A DNA stretch of 33,430 nt from Acidithiobacillus sp. (GCF_023256195.1 NZ_JAGDWX010000028.1:1-33430); one strand, 5' to 3'; numbered from the stretch's first letter, positions 466 through 11,483 are shown. Notes: generated by a model not told the origin, from the letters alone. A program made the numbers and translations.

Positions 466-1467
466 TCATCCCATCCGCTTTGCCAGATCCTCAGCCCGCA
501 AGTGGGTATACCGCTTCAACATCTGCAGGGTCTTGTGTCCAGTGATGGCCGACACTTCCATGGGGTTGAAGCCTTTCTCGAACAGCCGACTGGTGGCCTC
601 ATGGCGCAAGTCATGGAAGTGCAGATCTTTGATGCCGGCGCGCTCGCAGCATCGCGCAAAAACTTGCGTTACGGTATCCGCTTTCACATCCCATACCAGC
701 CCATCCAAGCGTCTAGGCAGCGCAGCCAGAACAGCAACGGCAGCCGATGACAGCGGCACCCTGCGAGCATTGCCGTTTTTCGTGTCCGGCAACAGTGCCA
801 CCCTTCCGGCCAGATTCACGTTCTCCCAACGCAAACCGCAAATCTCAGCTCTGCGCATGGCCGTTTCGATGGCGAATTGCACAATGGAAAGTATGTCTGG
901 GTTTTCATCTTGGCGGCATGCTTCCAGTAGTCTTGCCTCTTCATCGACGATCAGCCGCCTTTCGCGGCCTTGTGGGAGCTTTGGCTTGCGCACCGCTTCG
1001 ACGGGATTGCTGATCGCTTCCATGCCCCACTCGGTGCGGGCAACCTTGAACAAATGACTCAGGACAGCGAGATGCAACCGGATGGTATTGCCGCTCTTGC
1101 CTTCCCCTTCCATATCCTTGATCGTCTCGGCCACGTCGCGACCGCGAATGGCGGACATAAATCGCTTCGCGATGGGACGTCGCAGCCACTGCCGTAGCCT
1201 GAGTTCTTCTGGGTGCCCATTCTTCTTCCCGGGGGTGACTTCGGCGAGGTATCTCTGAATACACTCCTCAAGCGTCGTGCTCTCGGACTCGGAGCGATCT
1301 CGCCAAAGACCGCGCTCCATCTCAGACTCTATGAGTCTTGCCCAGGCTTCCGCATCCCGCTTCCGACGAAACGTCTTGGTTTGCGTCGGATACCCGCGCT
1401 TCCGAACATGCACTTGATAGCCGATCACGTTCCCGTCTTGATCTTTTCTAGGGGTGATGGTCGCCAT
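466..1467 (-). CDS. Site-specific tyrosine recombinase (phage/genomic-island integrase)
   Basis: 333-residue tyrosine recombinase that would catalyse integration and excision of a mobile element. The start at 1467 was chosen because AGGAG sits 8 nt upstream; an in-frame ATG 13 codons further out lacks one. Residues 1-55 look like the arm-type DNA-binding region, 65-160 the core-binding domain, and 175-325 the catalytic domain. Catalytic residues visible are Arg205 (AMRRAE), Lys230, His285 and Arg288 (HDLRH), His311 (ITGH) and the nucleophile Tyr320 (KRYTHL), so the enzyme looks intact. It reads away from the 3' end of tRNA-Leu, 127 bp away, the usual position of an integrase that uses a tRNA as attachment site. 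The matching second attachment site is not in the window. Confidence 0.93.
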   Translation of the reverse strand: MATITPRKDQDGNVIGYQVHVRKRGYPTQTKTFRRKRDAEAWARLIESEMERGLWRDRSESESTTLEECIQRYLAEVTPGKKNGHPEELRLRQWLRRPIAKRFMSAIRGRDVAETIKDMEGEGKSGNTIRLHLAVLSHLFKVARTEWGMEAISNPVEAVRKPKLPQGRERRLIVDEEARLLEACRQDENPDILSIVQFAIETAMRRAEICGLRWENVNLAGRVALLPDTKNGNARRVPLSSAAVAVLAALPRRLDGLVWDVKADTVTQVFARCCERAGIKDLHFHDLRHEATSRLFEKGFNPMEVSAITGHKTLQMLKRYTHLRAEDLAKRMG

Positions 1468-1480
1468 GCGATGCTCTCCT

Positions 1481-1532
1481 GATGCACTCCCGATGCACTG
1501 AATCAAGCCTTAAGTGCATCATGTTTGCATCA
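1481..1532. repeat. Short repeats upstream of integrase (GATGCACT family)
   Basis: Two direct copies of GATGCACT (1481-1488 and 1492-1499) are followed by one inverted copy, AGTGCATC (1513-1520), and a partial copy, TGCATC (1526-1531). They lie between the integrase start and the tRNA 3' end, where arm-type integrase sites or an autoregulatory operator are expected. Their function is inferred from position only. Confidence 0.45.
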
Positions 1533-6014: not shown

Positions 6015-6691
6015 GATGGTTGGCGCCGGTGTTTCCACGTCAATGTCCCGGTGGGGCCCGTGATGCTGCTCTTGATCTGGCTCTATGTGCCGCAATCTGG
6101 GAGCGCGACGCCACGCCCCATCGACGGGTTGGGCTTTCTCCTCATGACCTCAGGATCGGGCGGCCTGCAGATGGTACTGAGCCCGGGTAGCCAGGACGAC
6201 TGGTTCAGTTCCCATTTTATTGCGGGCACTAACCTGATGGCCTTGCTCGCTCTCACTTTCTTTGTCTGGTGCTGCTTCGAGATTTCCCACCCTATCGCCA
6301 AGTTGCGCTTGCTGAAAGACCGTGCGCTGGCTTTGGGGAGTGCCGGGATCGGCATTTTTGGCCTGGCCCTTTATGGGGTGATGGTCATCCTATCTATTTA
6401 TCTGAAGATCACACGAGCTACGAGGCGGTGACGTCGGCTTATGTCATGGCACGTCAAGCTGTCGGAGCCATGATCTCTATGTGGATGTCGGGGCGACTGA
6501 TCAACCGCGGGGCCGGTGCCCGGTGGATGGTTTTGCTCGGGATCCTTCTTGGGCTTTGGGCGTCCTGGTACACCACTCAGTATGATTTGGATGTCAGTCC
6601 CTGGTGGATCGTGTTTCCCGGGTTTGTTCGTGGCCTGGGACTGGGCCTGATTTTCCATTCCGATCTTCAATTAAATGTTTGGACGGTTTAA
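6015..6691 (+). pseudogene. Remnant of a DHA2-family (EmrB/QacA-like) MFS transporter
   Basis: The translation matches the middle of a 14-helix drug/proton antiporter. The fragment opens mid-protein without a start codon (WRRCFHVNVPVGPVMLL, the conserved WRWIFYINVPVG motif at the end of helix 6) and continues through QDDWFSS and several membrane helices. Near 6395-6410 the frame shifts: the first frame ends at 6431 (KITRATRR), while the homologous sequence (YEAVTSAYVMARQAVG, MSGRLINRGAGARWM) continues in another frame. It then stops after GLGLGLIFHSD, far short of a full C-terminus. Roughly 150 residues or more are missing at each end. It is a truncated, frameshifted pseudogene left by deletions. 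Confidence 0.85.
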
Positions 6692-6746: not shown

Positions 6747-6762
6747 TGGCATCCATATTGCT
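6747..6762 (+). promoter_or_regulatory. Sigma-54 (-24/-12) promoter of first DsrE-like gene
   Basis: TGGCATCCATATTGCT matches the sigma-54 consensus TGGCACG-N4-TTGCW at 10 of 12 defined positions. The invariant GG (6748-6749) and GC (6760-6761) are exactly 10 bp apart. The start codon lies 45 bp past the GC, giving a leader of about 33 nt. A second site with nearly the same geometry precedes the porin gene. Function is inferred from sequence. Confidence 0.6.
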
Positions 6763-6805
6763 TTACAGGATTGCTCGACGATCCTTTCATATTCTGGGGA
6801 AATAC

Positions 6806-7300
6806 ATGAACTTTAGAATATTCGCACTGTATGTTTTGCTCTCTTTGAGTTTCACGACCGGGATCAGTCAGGCGACCACCCTGTCGGACGCGCAGGCTTT
6901 AGCCGGACTGCATTCGGCGAAAGCCGTGTTTCTCGTCAACGTAAAGAACCCCGATGCTGTCGATCATCTGATCAACGTGATCGGCCTCACTCGTCATCAG
7001 CTCCTCCAGCAGAAAGTCACTCCGCACTTTATCGTTGTCTTCGTTGGCCCAGACGTCGCCTTCCTGACCAAGAACCGAAGGGGGATTCCGTATACCGATG
7101 AACGCGCCGTTGCCGGCATTCAGCGTGAGATTGCCAAACTGGCAAAGGACGGTGTCCAGTTCCAGGCTTGTGGCGTCGCTTTGCACGGTATGGACGTGCA
7201 TCCATCCATGCTTATATCGGCAGTTCGACCGGTGGAAAGCGGATTTATATCGGTCATCGCCTATCAGGAAAAAGGATATGCCCTCGTCCCGGTGTACTGA
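6806..7300 (+). CDS. Secreted DsrE/DsrF-like sulfur-carrier-type protein
   Basis: 164-residue protein with a signal peptide (residues 1-23, LYVLLSLSFTTG core, cleavage near SQA) followed by a DsrE-like fold: KAVFLVNVKNPD opens the first strand, FIVVFVGPDVAFL the second, and VQFQACGVAL carries Cys122 at the place of the conserved DsrE active-site cysteine. Cytoplasmic DsrE proteins pass sulfane sulfur as cysteine persulfide; an exported version would act in the periplasm, which is unusual. ATG 6806 has GGGGA upstream. A sigma-54 promoter match lies just before. The neighbours (porin, second secreted DsrE-like protein, propeller enzyme) point to periplasmic sulfur-compound metabolism, an inference from context. 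Confidence 0.82.
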   Translation: MNFRIFALYVLLSLSFTTGISQATTLSDAQALAGLHSAKAVFLVNVKNPDAVDHLINVIGLTRHQLLQQKVTPHFIVVFVGPDVAFLTKNRRGIPYTDERAVAGIQREIAKLAKDGVQFQACGVALHGMDVHPSMLISAVRPVESGFISVIAYQEKGYALVPVY

Positions 7301-7328
7301 CGCTGCCAAAGCAGGCCAGCCTTTGCAG

Positions 7329-7360
7329 CCGGGCGCTAGGTTGGCGACCTGTCTGCCCGG
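7329..7360. terminator. Nested hairpin between convergent genes
   Basis: CCGGGC (7329-7334) pairs with GCCCGG (7355-7360), enclosing AGGT/ACCT (7338-7341/7347-7350). It sits in the 85-bp gap between the convergent stops at 7300 and 7386, where a bidirectional terminator is expected. No T-run follows. Confidence 0.5.
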
Positions 7361-7385
7361 TCTGCCGGGGTCTTCCCGACTTCGG

Positions 7386-7865
7386 TCAACTTGCTCCGGG
7401 TATACTTTTCAGAGCGGAGATGACTGCCGCGTCGATATGTTCTGCGGTGGGTGTGGCTGGAGCATTATGGGTATAGGCGGTCCGTTCAGGGTAGACGATG
7501 GTCGTCGTCCCGTTTCTACCGAATACGGTAAGACCCAATGGGCAAACGGCCGCCGATTGCCACTCGCTATTCAATAACTGACTGAAGAACATGGGGTTGC
7601 AGAAGACAAAAGCTCGTACATCGGTAAACTTACCCTGGTTGAGATTGGGAATATGCAGCTCGCCTTCCTTCGCCTCGAGTCGTTTCAATACGTCCAGATC
7701 CATTACCACCTTGAAGTGATGGGTAGCGAGTGCGTGTTTCAGCTCAGGCAGAACGTGGCTGATGGGTGCTTTGATCGTTTCTACGTACAGGTTGCCAGCA
7801 ACAGCAGCGGGGACTGTGGCTATGGCGGCGATGATACCTGCAAGAATCTTTACAAGACCTTTCAT
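7386..7865 (-). CDS. Secreted DUF302-family protein
   Basis: 159-residue exported protein. Residues 1-23 form a signal peptide (ILAGIIAAIATVPAAVAG). The mature part has the DUF302 pattern: an N-terminal helix with a conserved LATHHFKVVMDLDVL segment, then AFVFCNPMFFSQLL and AVCPLGLTVF followed by a strand resembling TTIVYP. Two cysteines (Cys89, Cys108) occur. The start at 7865 has GGAGGA about 6 nt upstream. DUF302 proteins are small alpha/beta proteins of uncertain function, often found beside redox or sulfur genes and sometimes exported. The gene is convergent with the first DsrE-like gene and divergent from the porin gene, sharing a 185-bp regulatory region with the latter. Confidence 0.82.
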   Translation of the reverse strand: MKGLVKILAGIIAAIATVPAAVAGNLYVETIKAPISHVLPELKHALATHHFKVVMDLDVLKRLEAKEGELHIPNLNQGKFTDVRAFVFCNPMFFSQLLNSEWQSAAVCPLGLTVFGRNGTTTIVYPERTAYTHNAPATPTAEHIDAAVISALKSIPGAS

Positions 7866-8050
7866 TGTTATTCCTCCAGAAAATAAGTAACCGATAATAC
7901 AATTAGGATCTATTGTTCCACTTCGGGCATCGGCCCGGTATTCATTGTGCCATTTGGGTCCTGCCTGAAGATGAACACTCGGCTTTTTCAGATGGCACGA
8001 ATGATGCTCACACGAATGCAGATCAAACACAAGACCAAAGGGGTGATAAT
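7866..8050. promoter_or_regulatory. Divergent regulatory region, DUF302 gene / porin operon
   Basis: The region holds a strong sigma-54 site for the porin side (annotated separately), an inverted repeat GTGCCAT/ATGGCAC (7947-7953/7992-7998), and a short dyad CGGGC-ATCG-GCCCG (7924-7937) that could bind an enhancer-binding activator. On the minus strand, TGGCAC (7952-7947) is a perfect -24 half, but the -12 half reads AC instead of GC. A sigma-70-like TATTAT lies on the minus strand near 7900. Confidence 0.45.
7993..8008 (+). promoter_or_regulatory. Sigma-54 (-24/-12) promoter of porin operon
   Basis: TGGCACGAATGATGCT matches TGGCACG-N4-TTGCW at 11 of 12 defined positions. GG (7994-7995) and GC (8006-8007) are separated by exactly 10 bp. 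The porin start lies 44 bp past the GC, almost the same distance as at the 6747 site. Sigma-54 control of thiosulfate/tetrathionate genes is known in Acidithiobacillus caldus, which makes this plausible. Confidence 0.7.
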
Positions 8051-9409
8051 ATGAAGGCCTCCGTTTCTGCAAAACGGTGTATTATGATTATGGCTGTGGG
8101 TGTGGCTGGTATGCACCTAACTCCGGTGACCGCTGCCAACTGGTTCAAGCTACAGGACACCAACGAAAAAAAAGTCCCTTTGATATCTGGTTTTATCGAG
8201 CCCGACGTGTTTGCGATGGCGGGCACGCCAGTAGAAATATACAATCCGGTCCTGAAAAGATACATCTCGGCTGTACCACATGTGAATCTGGTGGGTCCCA
8301 ACTTCTCACAAAGCACGACCGGTATCATCCAGCGCGCACGGCTGATGATTCGGGGGTGGATCAATCCACAGATCTCCTATTTTTTTGCCGGTGAATTTGG
8401 AAACAATGCCGCCACCAATGTGCGTGGACGCTATCTTCCGCAGTTGCAGGATGCGCGATTCACCTTCAGTGGTTACATACCTGGCGCTCGGATCGAGCTC
8501 GGAATCATCCGTGCTCCCAGCGCCGAAGACGCGATGAACGGCTACATGAGCTATAATTACGTTGTTTTTCCGACGGTTATCAATCAGCTCATGTTGCAGC
8601 CATTCTATGCAGCGCGGCCGTCGACCCTCTATGTCACCGGCCCAAGTGGTTCGGTGCTCATTCCCTCCACCGAGGCGTTGGGGGTGAACGCCTTTCGCTA
8701 TCCGGGCATTCAACTCTTCGACTGGAAGAACTGGGGACACTGGCAGATTGCGTACGCCGCCATGGTCGGCATGTATGGCAGTGTTGCGGCCGGTAACCTT
8801 TCCAACAGTCCTTTGTACGCGGCCAGATTGCAGGGCTCATACATCTTCGGCGGACACGGTCCATTTCGAAGTGATGTCACCGCGTGGATCTGGTATCAAA
8901 ATGCGCAGCCAGACTATCTGGGGCATGCCTATACCATGCAACGGGAGGGCGTGGGGTTCCAGTATCTGCAGGGGTACATGCATCCCTGGGGCCGACGCCT
9001 GAAATTTGAGTATATGCGTGGGAATGGCTGGATTTCGGCGCCGGCGGCGTTCAGCCAGGCTCCGGGACTACAGCCCGCCCTTTATAACAATCAGCTATAT
9101 ACAAATATCAATAACTCGGCGTATGGGTACTACGTCGAGGGTGGATTGTTCCTGACAAAGCGGATTGAGGCCGATGTTCGCTACGATTACTATAATCGTC
9201 TTCCCAATTTGCAAGCCGTCGGCCAAGAGCGGATATTCAAGACCTTGGCGCTTGCTCTGCAGTATCATTTCACGCCCGTCACCAAATTGATGGCGGGATA
9301 TTATTTCCGCACAGTACAGGCTCCGGGATTGGCACCAAACACCCCGGGTGCAGCGGTGAGTGCTGCTACCGATAATGAGTTTGCCATGCAGGCGATGATC
9401 AGTTTTTAA
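8051..9409 (+). CDS. Outer-membrane porin (phosphate-selective-porin-like)
   Basis: 452-residue outer-membrane protein. Residues 1-29 look like a signal peptide (CIMIMAVGVAGMHL core, cleavage near VTA-AN). The body has a porin O/P-like arrangement: RARLMIRGWINPQISYFFAGEFG near residue 96, then DARFTFSGYIPGARIELGIIRAPSAEDA, a motif style common in the OprO/OprP family. Many amphipathic strands follow, and the C-terminus is AMQAMISF with a terminal Phe for barrel insertion. ATG 8051 was chosen over an upstream in-frame ATG because of AAAGGGGTGAT just before it and the signal peptide it gives. It is first in a probable three-gene operon and may admit sulfur oxyanions or release products; the substrate is not visible from the sequence. 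Confidence 0.82.
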   Translation: MKASVSAKRCIMIMAVGVAGMHLTPVTAANWFKLQDTNEKKVPLISGFIEPDVFAMAGTPVEIYNPVLKRYISAVPHVNLVGPNFSQSTTGIIQRARLMIRGWINPQISYFFAGEFGNNAATNVRGRYLPQLQDARFTFSGYIPGARIELGIIRAPSAEDAMNGYMSYNYVVFPTVINQLMLQPFYAARPSTLYVTGPSGSVLIPSTEALGVNAFRYPGIQLFDWKNWGHWQIAYAAMVGMYGSVAAGNLSNSPLYAARLQGSYIFGGHGPFRSDVTAWIWYQNAQPDYLGHAYTMQREGVGFQYLQGYMHPWGRRLKFEYMRGNGWISAPAAFSQAPGLQPALYNNQLYTNINNSAYGYYVEGGLFLTKRIEADVRYDYYNRLPNLQAVGQERIFKTLALALQYHFTPVTKLMAGYYFRTVQAPGLAPNTPGAAVSAATDNEFAMQAMISF

Positions 9410-9427
9410 CCAAAGGAGGTCAACCAG

Positions 9428-9928
9428 ATGAAACAACTGTGGGAACAAGCTCTGAGAAGTCTGCTGCTGGGCACGATGCTTATGGTCTTTGGAACGGGGG
9501 CGGTGCTCGCTGATGTATCGATGCTGCAGGATTTTCATTTCGACCATCCGACGTTCCAGCATGATCACCCCTTCGCCAGTCGCAAGCTCGTGGTTCAGGT
9601 TAGCCAAGATAACCCGGCGCGCTGGGATCTGGTGCTGAATACGACGCAGAATATATTGAATTATTTTGGTCAGGAAAAGGTGCAGGTCGTCATAGTGGCT
9701 TTCGGTCCGGGTCTCAAATTTCTTCTAGCCAACAGCCCTGTGAAACAACGGATTGCGGCTTTGAACGCGGAAGGCGTCGAGTTCGACGCGTGTCACAACA
9801 CAATGCTGCAGTTCCAGAAGAAGCTTGGGCACATGCCGGAGCTGGTTCCGTCCGCGGTCGTTGTTCCGGCTGGGATCGTTCGAATCATGCAATTGGAGAG
9901 CCATGGTTTCGATTATGTAAAGCCCTGA
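9428..9928 (+). CDS. Second secreted DsrE-like protein
   Basis: 166-residue exported DsrE-like protein, 18 bp after the porin stop codon with a near-perfect ribosome binding site (AAAGGAGGT). Residues 1-28 are a signal peptide (SLLLGTMLMVFGTGAVLA). The mature N-terminus is His/Asp-rich (DFHFDHPTFQHDHPF), then the fold begins: LVVQVSQDNPARWDLVLN, VQVVIVAFGPGLKFLL, and VEFDACHNTM with Cys122 at the DsrE active-site position, exactly as in the paralogue at 6806. The order DsrE-porin-DsrE-propeller suggests a periplasmic sulfur carrier partnering the downstream enzyme. The His-rich segment might bind a metal; that is a guess. Confidence 0.82.
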   Translation: MKQLWEQALRSLLLGTMLMVFGTGAVLADVSMLQDFHFDHPTFQHDHPFASRKLVVQVSQDNPARWDLVLNTTQNILNYFGQEKVQVVIVAFGPGLKFLLANSPVKQRIAALNAEGVEFDACHNTMLQFQKKLGHMPELVPSAVVVPAGIVRIMQLESHGFDYVKP

Positions 9929-10037
9929 TCCAAAGCTCTGACCAGATCCACTGGTGGTGTGGGAGCATCGAAAAATAATCCTGTCCCTTCCCCATCACCG
10001 CTACGGCGAGTTTTCACAATACCGAGAGGCTGATTGT

Positions 10038-11483
10038 ATGAAAAATACCGATTCCAGGCTTGCCAGATACATTGATAGGTACGATGCTGGTCGGTTTGCA
10101 TGGGCTGAGAATAGGATTTCGGTGCACAGAAGGTGCGCCTGTGTCTTACTCGGGGCGTCGATCCTCGCGCTCTGGGGTGCAGCGGCGAGGGCGGAAAGTA
10201 CCGGGACACCGCAGCAGTGGACCACCTACGCGCTGCAGTCGTCTCACAATGCCTACTACCCATCGAACTTTCCGGCAGAATCGTGGAGCTTCTCAGTGCC
10301 AGGTGCAAAGGGGATCGATCGGAAAGTGGTGCGTAGCACCACTACCATTCGGGATCTGGTAGGCTTTCCTATTGGTGTGTCTGTGGTCGACGGTGTCGTA
10401 TATGCTCCAAACGATGACGGCCATCTGTACGCTCTCAGGGCGACCAACGGTGCACTTTTGTGGTCAAGCAATGCCTATAACCAGCTTATGACGACTCCTA
10501 TTGTGGTGGCCGTTGGCAACCAGAAAATGGTCTATGTGGGTGCGGGAAACTCGGTTTTTTCTTACAGTCAGGCGAAGAGATTTGGTGTGGCTGGAGCGCG
10601 TGTCATTCGCGGTACGGACGTTTCGGCAATCGAGGCATTCGATGCCAAAAACGGCGAGCTCCGGTGGGTGTATCATACCAAGGGTGAGGATATGCCTACG
10701 CCGGTCTACATCGACGGGAAAATAATCTTTGGAAATGGCGATGGACATATCTATGCGCTGTCCGCTGACAGCGGAACACTGTTATGGAAAAGCGACATTA
10801 GATCGTTCGTGAGTATGTCCTCGGCAACGCCGGCGGATGATGGTAAGGTGGTGGTCATGGGTGGTACGCACCCCAGTGCGATCTATGGGGTCAGCAGCAC
10901 GACCGGAAAAATATTGTGGAAAGTACACCCGCGTGACATATTTTCGAGCAGCGGCGGTGACGGTACCTGGGCGGCGCAGGGGCGAGTCGTGGTTGGCCAA
11001 ATTGAGGTTCATCATCACCGTCAGGCAGCGGGTACGTCCGCGTCGGAAGAGCTTGCCATCGATGCCGAGAATGGGCATGTGATCTGGTCGAAAGAGCTCG
11101 GTTCGGGAAAGACGCCGCCGCGCAACAAGGATGCGGTACCAACCATTGCGGACGGAGTCATATATACGGGCAGTCCGGTAACCCACGAAGAATATGCCAT
11201 CGATGTAGGGTCCGGGGACATTCTCTGGCGCACACATCTGGCGGCGGGAATGAAATCGGCGCCGGTGGTGGTAGGCGGTCACGTCATCCAAGCCCTGGGG
11301 AACGGCGATATCTATGCCCTGGATAGGAAGACGGGCGCCACCGAACACGTCTATCACAATCGTTGCGGAGGCTTCGGTCCACAGAATGGCGTGGTCATCG
11401 GAAACACCTACTTCATCGGTTCCAACGCCGGTTGTATGGAGGCGATACCCGTGCCCGATATCTTGGGTGCGGCGGCAGGGTAG
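10038..11483 (+). CDS. PQQ-type beta-propeller, tetrathionate-hydrolase-like
   Basis: 481-residue exported propeller. A long N-region (about 33 residues) precedes the hydrophobic core VLLGASILALWGAAARA, cleaved near residue 52. At least five propeller blades of the PQQ type are visible, with signatures such as GHLYALRATNGALLW, SAIEAFDAKNGELRW, GHIYALSADSGTLLW, EYAIDVGSGDILW and GDIYALDRKTGAT. Size, export and style match tetrathionate hydrolase of Acidithiobacillus, which belongs to this fold without using PQQ; other members are alcohol dehydrogenases or BamB-like proteins. I see no cytochrome c motif, so an alcohol quinohaemoprotein is unlikely. The start is set by GAGAGG about 8 nt before ATG 10038. 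Placement after a secreted DsrE-like gene and a porin gene favours a role in sulfur metabolism. The exact substrate is not proven. Confidence 0.7.
   Translation: MKNTDSRLARYIDRYDAGRFAWAENRISVHRRCACVLLGASILALWGAAARAESTGTPQQWTTYALQSSHNAYYPSNFPAESWSFSVPGAKGIDRKVVRSTTTIRDLVGFPIGVSVVDGVVYAPNDDGHLYALRATNGALLWSSNAYNQLMTTPIVVAVGNQKMVYVGAGNSVFSYSQAKRFGVAGARVIRGTDVSAIEAFDAKNGELRWVYHTKGEDMPTPVYIDGKIIFGNGDGHIYALSADSGTLLWKSDIRSFVSMSSATPADDGKVVVMGGTHPSAIYGVSSTTGKILWKVHPRDIFSSSGGDGTWAAQGRVVVGQIEVHHHRQAAGTSASEELAIDAENGHVIWSKELGSGKTPPRNKDAVPTIADGVIYTGSPVTHEEYAIDVGSGDILWRTHLAAGMKSAPVVVGGHVIQALGNGDIYALDRKTGATEHVYHNRCGGFGPQNGVVIGNTYFIGSNAGCMEAIPVPDILGAAAG

Follow-up and report, generated by a model that had tools for sequence, protein, structure and literature searches.

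What might five adjacent genes for exported proteins do together in the envelope of an Acidithiobacillus species, when two of them encode DsrE-like proteins, one a porin and one a relative of tetrathionate hydrolase (TTH)? The genes lie at positions 6806-11483 of a 33,430-nucleotide stretch of DNA (NZ_JAGDWX010000028.1; hereafter, the window), which belongs to a 1.98-Mb genome of the Acidithiobacillus family assembled in 37 contigs and 99.99% complete.

Gene content of the locus

Gene calls agree with the original prediction of four plus-strand genes and one minus-strand gene, all encoding exported products (Table 1). Sec-type signal peptides were judged by eye to be present at the N-termini of all five proteins; that of the propeller has a normal length if translation is taken to start at an alternative GTG at position 10122. 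The 110-bp gap between the DsrE2 and propeller genes contains no convincing terminator, and the two genes may be co-transcribed. The genome carries one copy of thiosulfate:quinone oxidoreductase (TQO; DoxD) outside the gene set, and searches of it for a classical TTH and for a thiosulfate dehydrogenase (TSD) found neither.

Table 1. Genes and putative regulatory elements of the locus (window coordinates)
Feature	Position	Strand	Description
Sigma-54 -24/-12 element TGGCATCCATATTGCT	6747-6762	+	Exact TGGCA-N6-TTGCT, 59 bp before DsrE1
DsrE1	6806-7300	+	Exported DsrE-family protein, sole cysteine C122; Pfam DsrE match
DUF302	7386-7865	-	Exported DUF302-family protein, conserved C89 and C108; Pfam DUF302 near threshold
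TspR-type enhancer-like site TGTGCCATTTGGGTCC	7946-7961	+	47 bp before the -24 box of the porin promoter; 3 mismatches to TGTCCCAWWTGGGACA
Second sigma-54 element TGGCACGAATGATGCT	7993-8008	+	11 of 12 consensus positions, 58 bp before porin
Porin	8051-9409	+	Outer-membrane porin, distantly related to the phosphate-selective O/P porins; conserved beside DsrE2
DsrE2	9428-9928	+	Exported DsrE-fold protein, sole cysteine C122 within motif F-D-A-C-H-N
Propeller	10038-11483	+	TTH-like, eight-bladed, second clade; catalytic Asp308 by alignment

Upstream of the module, two overlapping frames (6051-6691) look by eye like pieces of a broken gene for a DHA2/EmrB-like multidrug transporter, the first of which had no Pfam match. 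A tyrosine integrase gene (466-1506, minus strand; Pfam Phage_integrase) lies ~5 kb upstream of the module and suggests a mobile region. Plasmid carriage of the cluster was not found; the sole plasmid match was a DsrE-family gene on an A. caldus SM-1 plasmid (NC_015853.1, 6252-6668), with 68% DNA identity to DsrE2.

The propeller is a second-clade relative of tetrathionate hydrolase

The proposed resemblance of the propeller to TTH was borne out by both sequence and fold. Its best match in the PDB is the A. ferrooxidans TTH (AfTTH; E = 3e-44, versus 2.5e-12 for the best BamB match), and its AlphaFold model (pLDDT 73.5) aligns with the TTH D325N structure (7cqy) across 379 residues with a Z score of 49.1, against 37.0 for the second-best fold. 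The D325N protein is inactive (PMC10859504), and the residue mutated in it aligns with Asp308 of the propeller; an aspartate is kept at this position in 38 of 38 clade-2 members and 21 of 21 classical TTHs. The propeller and TTH also have in common the pocket methionines M151, M219, and M260, as well as R191 and K364. Grouping with alcohol dehydrogenases or BamB had been named as the outcome that would speak against a TTH relative, and both assignments were rejected: the NCBIfam BamB model scored 96.9 bits (cut-off, 285.2), with weaker sequence and fold matches than TTH, and PQQ_enz_alc_DH scored 58.8 bits (cut-off, 480).

Phylogenetic analysis resolved classical TTHs as a clade of their own (support 97/93), and the propeller was rejected as a classical TTH (AFE_0029 orthologue) because it falls outside this clade. 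It belongs instead to a separate group of ~34 sequences from Acidithiobacillia, Acidiferrobacter-like MAGs, Burkholderiales MAGs, Acidulodesulfobacteriota, and one MAG labelled Actinomycetes. A single very divergent row, L155, lowers the support for joining all clade-2 rows into one group (70/33). The BamB outgroup raised a long-branch warning, and the TTH assignment rests on the structure match and the residues. Within the group, a supported subclade unites the propellers of the window and of two genomes with the same module (G001 and G023) with that of a further genome, G015. Its sister subclade holds all TSD-adjacent propellers, a new observation. The second clade thus described has a testable catalytic residue and extends to many acid-mine lineages, including Candidatus Acididesulfobacter.

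Conservation of Asp325 and of the pocket residues is complete, and the propeller is the only TTH-like gene of a genome that also has TQO; both observations argue against a TTH fold adapted to another substrate (trithionate, pentathionate, or longer polythionates) or turned into an inactive binding protein. This alternative, which we deem possible but rather unlikely, would nevertheless fit the ~30% identity to AfTTH, the missing N-terminal insertion of TTH (DDAPEWIRNGVSWL), and the clade-specific M405 and Q449 that replace TTH residues, as well as the presence of both TTH clades in several genomes.

Elsewhere, no sulfur genes adjoin the clade-2 propellers found in Candidatus Acididesulfobacter and its relatives among the MAGs (L149, L145, and similar loci). 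The same holds for the propellers of Acidiferrobacter-like and Acidulodesulfobacteriota MAGs, at whose loci the shared neighbours are ordinary genes with no sulfur link. A classical-TTH relative and a clade-2 propeller lie within 8 kb of each other in the MAG labelled Actinomycetes (L152).

DsrE2 is related to thiosulfate dehydrogenase at the profile level

DsrE1 belongs to the DsrE family by the Pfam cut-off (23.8 bits; cut-off, 22.7), whereas DsrE2 scores below it (15.2 bits) and is assigned by the match of its family profile to the DsrE-fold structure MTH1491 (1l1s; E = 2.3e-17). Residue 122, the candidate active cysteine originally predicted in both exported proteins, is indeed the only cysteine of each (their export being judged by eye) and is invariant in alignments of 25 DsrE2 and 8 DsrE1 rows.

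A link between exported DsrE proteins and TSD emerged that is new. The NCBIfam TSD model (NF052225) matched DsrE2 at 21.4 bits (E = 1.3e-4; below the curated cut-off of 300 bits), and comparison of the DsrE2 and TSD profiles gave a probability of 94% (E = 9e-8), the match spanning 63 columns around F-x-[AG]-C-H-N. In addition, the two best PDB matches of a TSD model, itself poor (pLDDT 48.6), were the DsrE-fold structures 1l1s and 2pd2, with Z scores of 6.5 and 6.4 (below 8) against 2.8 for the next match. Taken together, these three modest lines suggest that TSD may be a DsrE-fold enzyme. TSD, whose structure and mechanism were called open in a 2019 review (PMC6335251), would thereby gain a fold and a candidate for its active cysteine. 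A TSD profile search of the PDB gave no match. DsrE1 had no match to TSD in profile comparison, and the TSD link is therefore limited to DsrE2. TSD (AFE_0042) is exported, like DsrE2, and holds the F-x-[AG]-C-H-N motif and the C-terminal pattern of DsrE2 in its C-terminal part, but it is longer (~260-280 residues), with an annotated Tat signal and an extra N-terminal region.

Genes for TSD adjoin propellers of the sister subclade in A. ferrivorans DSM 22755, A. ferriphilus DSM 100412, two Proteobacteria MAGs, and one Burkholderiales MAG, and the order at one MAG locus (L132) is TSD, propeller, and DsrE2 relative. TSD was present in each of the five family genomes that lack a close DsrE2, versus 7 of the 24 with DsrE2 (Fisher p = 0.007, uncorrected for relatedness); since TSD presence follows phylogeny, this complementarity is not independent evidence.

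In view of the relatedness of DsrE2 to TSD, simple storage of sulfane sulfur is no more likely than thiosulfate oxidation or thiosulfonate chemistry. In the version of the original prediction, the DsrE proteins are periplasmic acceptors or carriers of sulfane sulfur for the S0 or disulfane products of polythionate hydrolysis and play no role in thiosulfate oxidation. A sole and invariant Cys122 is compatible with such a role, as are the release of S0 by AfTTH (PMC10859504) and the sulfur-carrying function of DsrE proteins, among which Metallosphaera DsrE3A is converted by tetrathionate to a Cys-S-thiosulfonate (PMC4175335). However, one would not expect to find TusA or other cytoplasmic partners in the periplasm, and the thiosulfate-oxidising TSD is the only characterised enzyme with the CHN motif of DsrE2 in this comparison; we regard the acceptor role as credible, though we lean against it. 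DsrE3A and the DsrE of the rhd-tusA-dsrE-hdr cluster resemble the window proteins in family and reactive cysteine, but in that cluster a cytoplasmic DsrE accompanies TusA and Hdr, whereas the window DsrE proteins are exported and accompany a porin.

On sequence grounds, we infer that the DsrE proteins perform cysteine-based chemistry on thiosulfate or sulfane sulfur, possibly in place of TSD. A more far-reaching version, offered tentatively and in our view doubtful as a whole, is that DsrE2, with or without DsrE1, acts in the periplasm as a cysteine-based enzyme, homologous to A. ferrooxidans TSD, that oxidises thiosulfate or transfers thiosulfonate. DsrE-fold proteins would then make up a class of thiosulfate enzymes outside the cytoplasm, exchanged for TSD next to second-clade TTHs under common sigma-54/TspR control.

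DUF302, porin, and DsrE2 make up the conserved core

The gene neighbourhood, whose conservation in relatives had been proposed as a check, is conserved. The full five-gene set occurs in three genomes: that of the window, G001 (same genus, same order), and G023 (another genus), where it is rearranged, with DsrE2 and the porin reversed and followed by DUF302, the propeller, a cytochrome P460, and DsrE1. Rare as the full set with the propeller is, the DUF302-porin-DsrE2 core forms the conserved unit; it recurs at about 15 further loci and is wider than the earlier note could know. By our own count, 20 genomes contain ~30 porin-DsrE2 pairs; DUF302 accompanies 18 of the pairs, and 7 have DsrE1 as well. 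Many pairs are surrounded by housekeeping genes; neighbours in several loci are DoxDA (TQO), a metallo-beta-lactamase-fold gene (Pfam Lactamase_B only; SDO-like in our own reading), and cytochrome P460. DsrE1 of G015 lies ~2 kb from a classical TTH-DoxDA locus.

The DUF302 protein scores just under the Pfam cut-off (22.2 versus 23 bits), and in the alignment of its relatives C89 is invariant and C108 nearly so. These relatives are found beside porin-DsrE2 pairs, inside the sox-II cluster, and beside TSD in A. ferrooxidans, where one adjoins the second TSD gene. The window porin has no Pfam match of its own, and neither its sequence nor its profile matched the PDB; Porin_O_P matched 5 of 14 members of its family (best E = 4.6e-6). 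In A. ferrooxidans, the gene immediately after tth encodes a relative of this porin.

The cluster copy of DsrE2 in G001 (L033 9640-10150) is frameshifted near its start, yet from residue 48 it is 97% identical to the window protein, whereas the propellers of the two genomes are only 69% identical; these are signs of recombination and decay in G001. The frameshifted gene is thus dispensable there, an intact copy being present elsewhere. The unnamed gene of the sox-II cluster (L216 14902-15432) is similar to the DUF302 family and retains C89 but not C108.

Sigma-54 elements precede DsrE1 and the porin, with a TspR-like site before the porin

The sigma-54 link claimed for the locus appears real and is strongly supported by promoter sequences. 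An exact element such as that preceding DsrE1 is expected 0.12 times per window. The whole genome has 11 exact sites versus 1 for a backward control, and two of them belong to this module type: the one at 6747 and another on contig C8 (position 2165), before a second porin-DsrE2 pair. The sister genome G001 has an identical element upstream of DsrE1 (L033 6980-6995). The element before the porin was absent from the earlier note and was found in this analysis. Among relatives, sites scoring at least 10 precede 24 of 35 porins versus 2 of 287 other genes (Fisher p = 1e-25, relatedness ignored), and sigma-54 sites also lie upstream of the propeller in G023 and G015. The -24/-12 element with a GG/GC core before the gene, which characterizes a sigma-54 regulon, is therefore present as an enriched and conserved sequence element.

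TspR-like sites were detected in 8 of 16 DUF302-type porin promoters, the distance to the -24 box downstream of them being either 44-48 or 76-79 bp, whereas shuffled sequences yielded a mean of 0.2 and a maximum of 2. TspR control of the module is thus a good inference, half of these promoters carrying a site against an expected 0.2 in 16, and the regulator is probably of the TspR type. A search of the DsrE1 promoter revealed no enhancer site better than chance. Nine sigma-54 activators are encoded in the window genome; one, with 67% identity to the TcsR encoded beside tth in A. ferrooxidans, adjoins a sox-II cluster (sox genes named by eye) with a DUF302-type gene. The genome has TspSR and sox-II, with a UAS that differs by 1 mismatch from the TspR site. 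The A. caldus sox-II cluster controlled by TspS/TspR (UAS TGTCCCAAATGGGACA; PMC6335251) likewise combines a sigma-54 promoter, a UAS-like site, and a DUF302-type gene, but it encodes Sox proteins, which the window module lacks.

The TspR-type sites also bear on whether the porin-DsrE2 operon serves a general sigma-54 envelope response, such as one to the status of phosphate or nitrogen, and lies close to sulfur genes only secondarily. The similarity to Porin_O_P and the copies amid housekeeping genes could be read in this way, but the excess of these sites over shuffles, the repeated linkage to DoxDA, SDO-like genes, TTH, and TSD, and the porin relative 3' of tth in A. ferrooxidans make it improbable.

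A probable envelope module of the S4-intermediate pathway

We consider it probable that the locus encodes a sigma-54-controlled envelope module of the S4-intermediate (S4I) pathway, likely under a TspR-type, thiosulfate-sensing regulator and made up of the porin, the TTH-like propeller, and the exported DsrE proteins. The porin would be the outer-membrane channel for sulfur oxyanions. Tetrathionate would be formed by oxidation of thiosulfate through TQO/DoxDA, whose genes lie elsewhere in the genome, and perhaps also through DsrE2/DsrE1; the propeller would hydrolyse tetrathionate or a related polythionate through acid catalysis by Asp308. Cys122 of the DsrE proteins may bind thiosulfate as a Cys-S-thiosulfonate or take up the sulfane sulfur released. 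Several observations speak against this reading: the restriction of the full set to three genomes, the frameshifted DsrE2 of G001, the many porin-DsrE2 pairs surrounded by housekeeping genes, the clade-2 propellers that lack sulfur genes as neighbours, and the 3 mismatches of the enhancer-like site.

We read the module as a variation on the S4I pathway and not as a novel type of system. Its predicted chemistry is that of TQO/DoxDA plus TetH; unlike the known pathway, it brings a second TTH clade, exported DsrE proteins, DUF302, and a porin into one set. Similarly, the propeller has in common with A. ferrooxidans TTH (AFE_0029; PDB 6l8a, 7cqy) the eight blades, the catalytic Asp, the pocket Met/Arg/Lys residues, export, and an associated porin, but it differs in identity, tree position, gene neighbours, and the N-terminal insertion. 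No paper in the literature searched brought DUF302, DsrE, porin, and sulfur together. The recurrence of the module in relatives suggests a so far undescribed handling of thiosulfate and tetrathionate outside the cytoplasm, and the exported DsrE-porin pair under sigma-54, undescribed in the same literature, is a near-universal part of the Acidithiobacillia envelope. The exported cytochrome P460 (family F9; L034, L192), which lies beside modules in six loci, is a possible electron acceptor.
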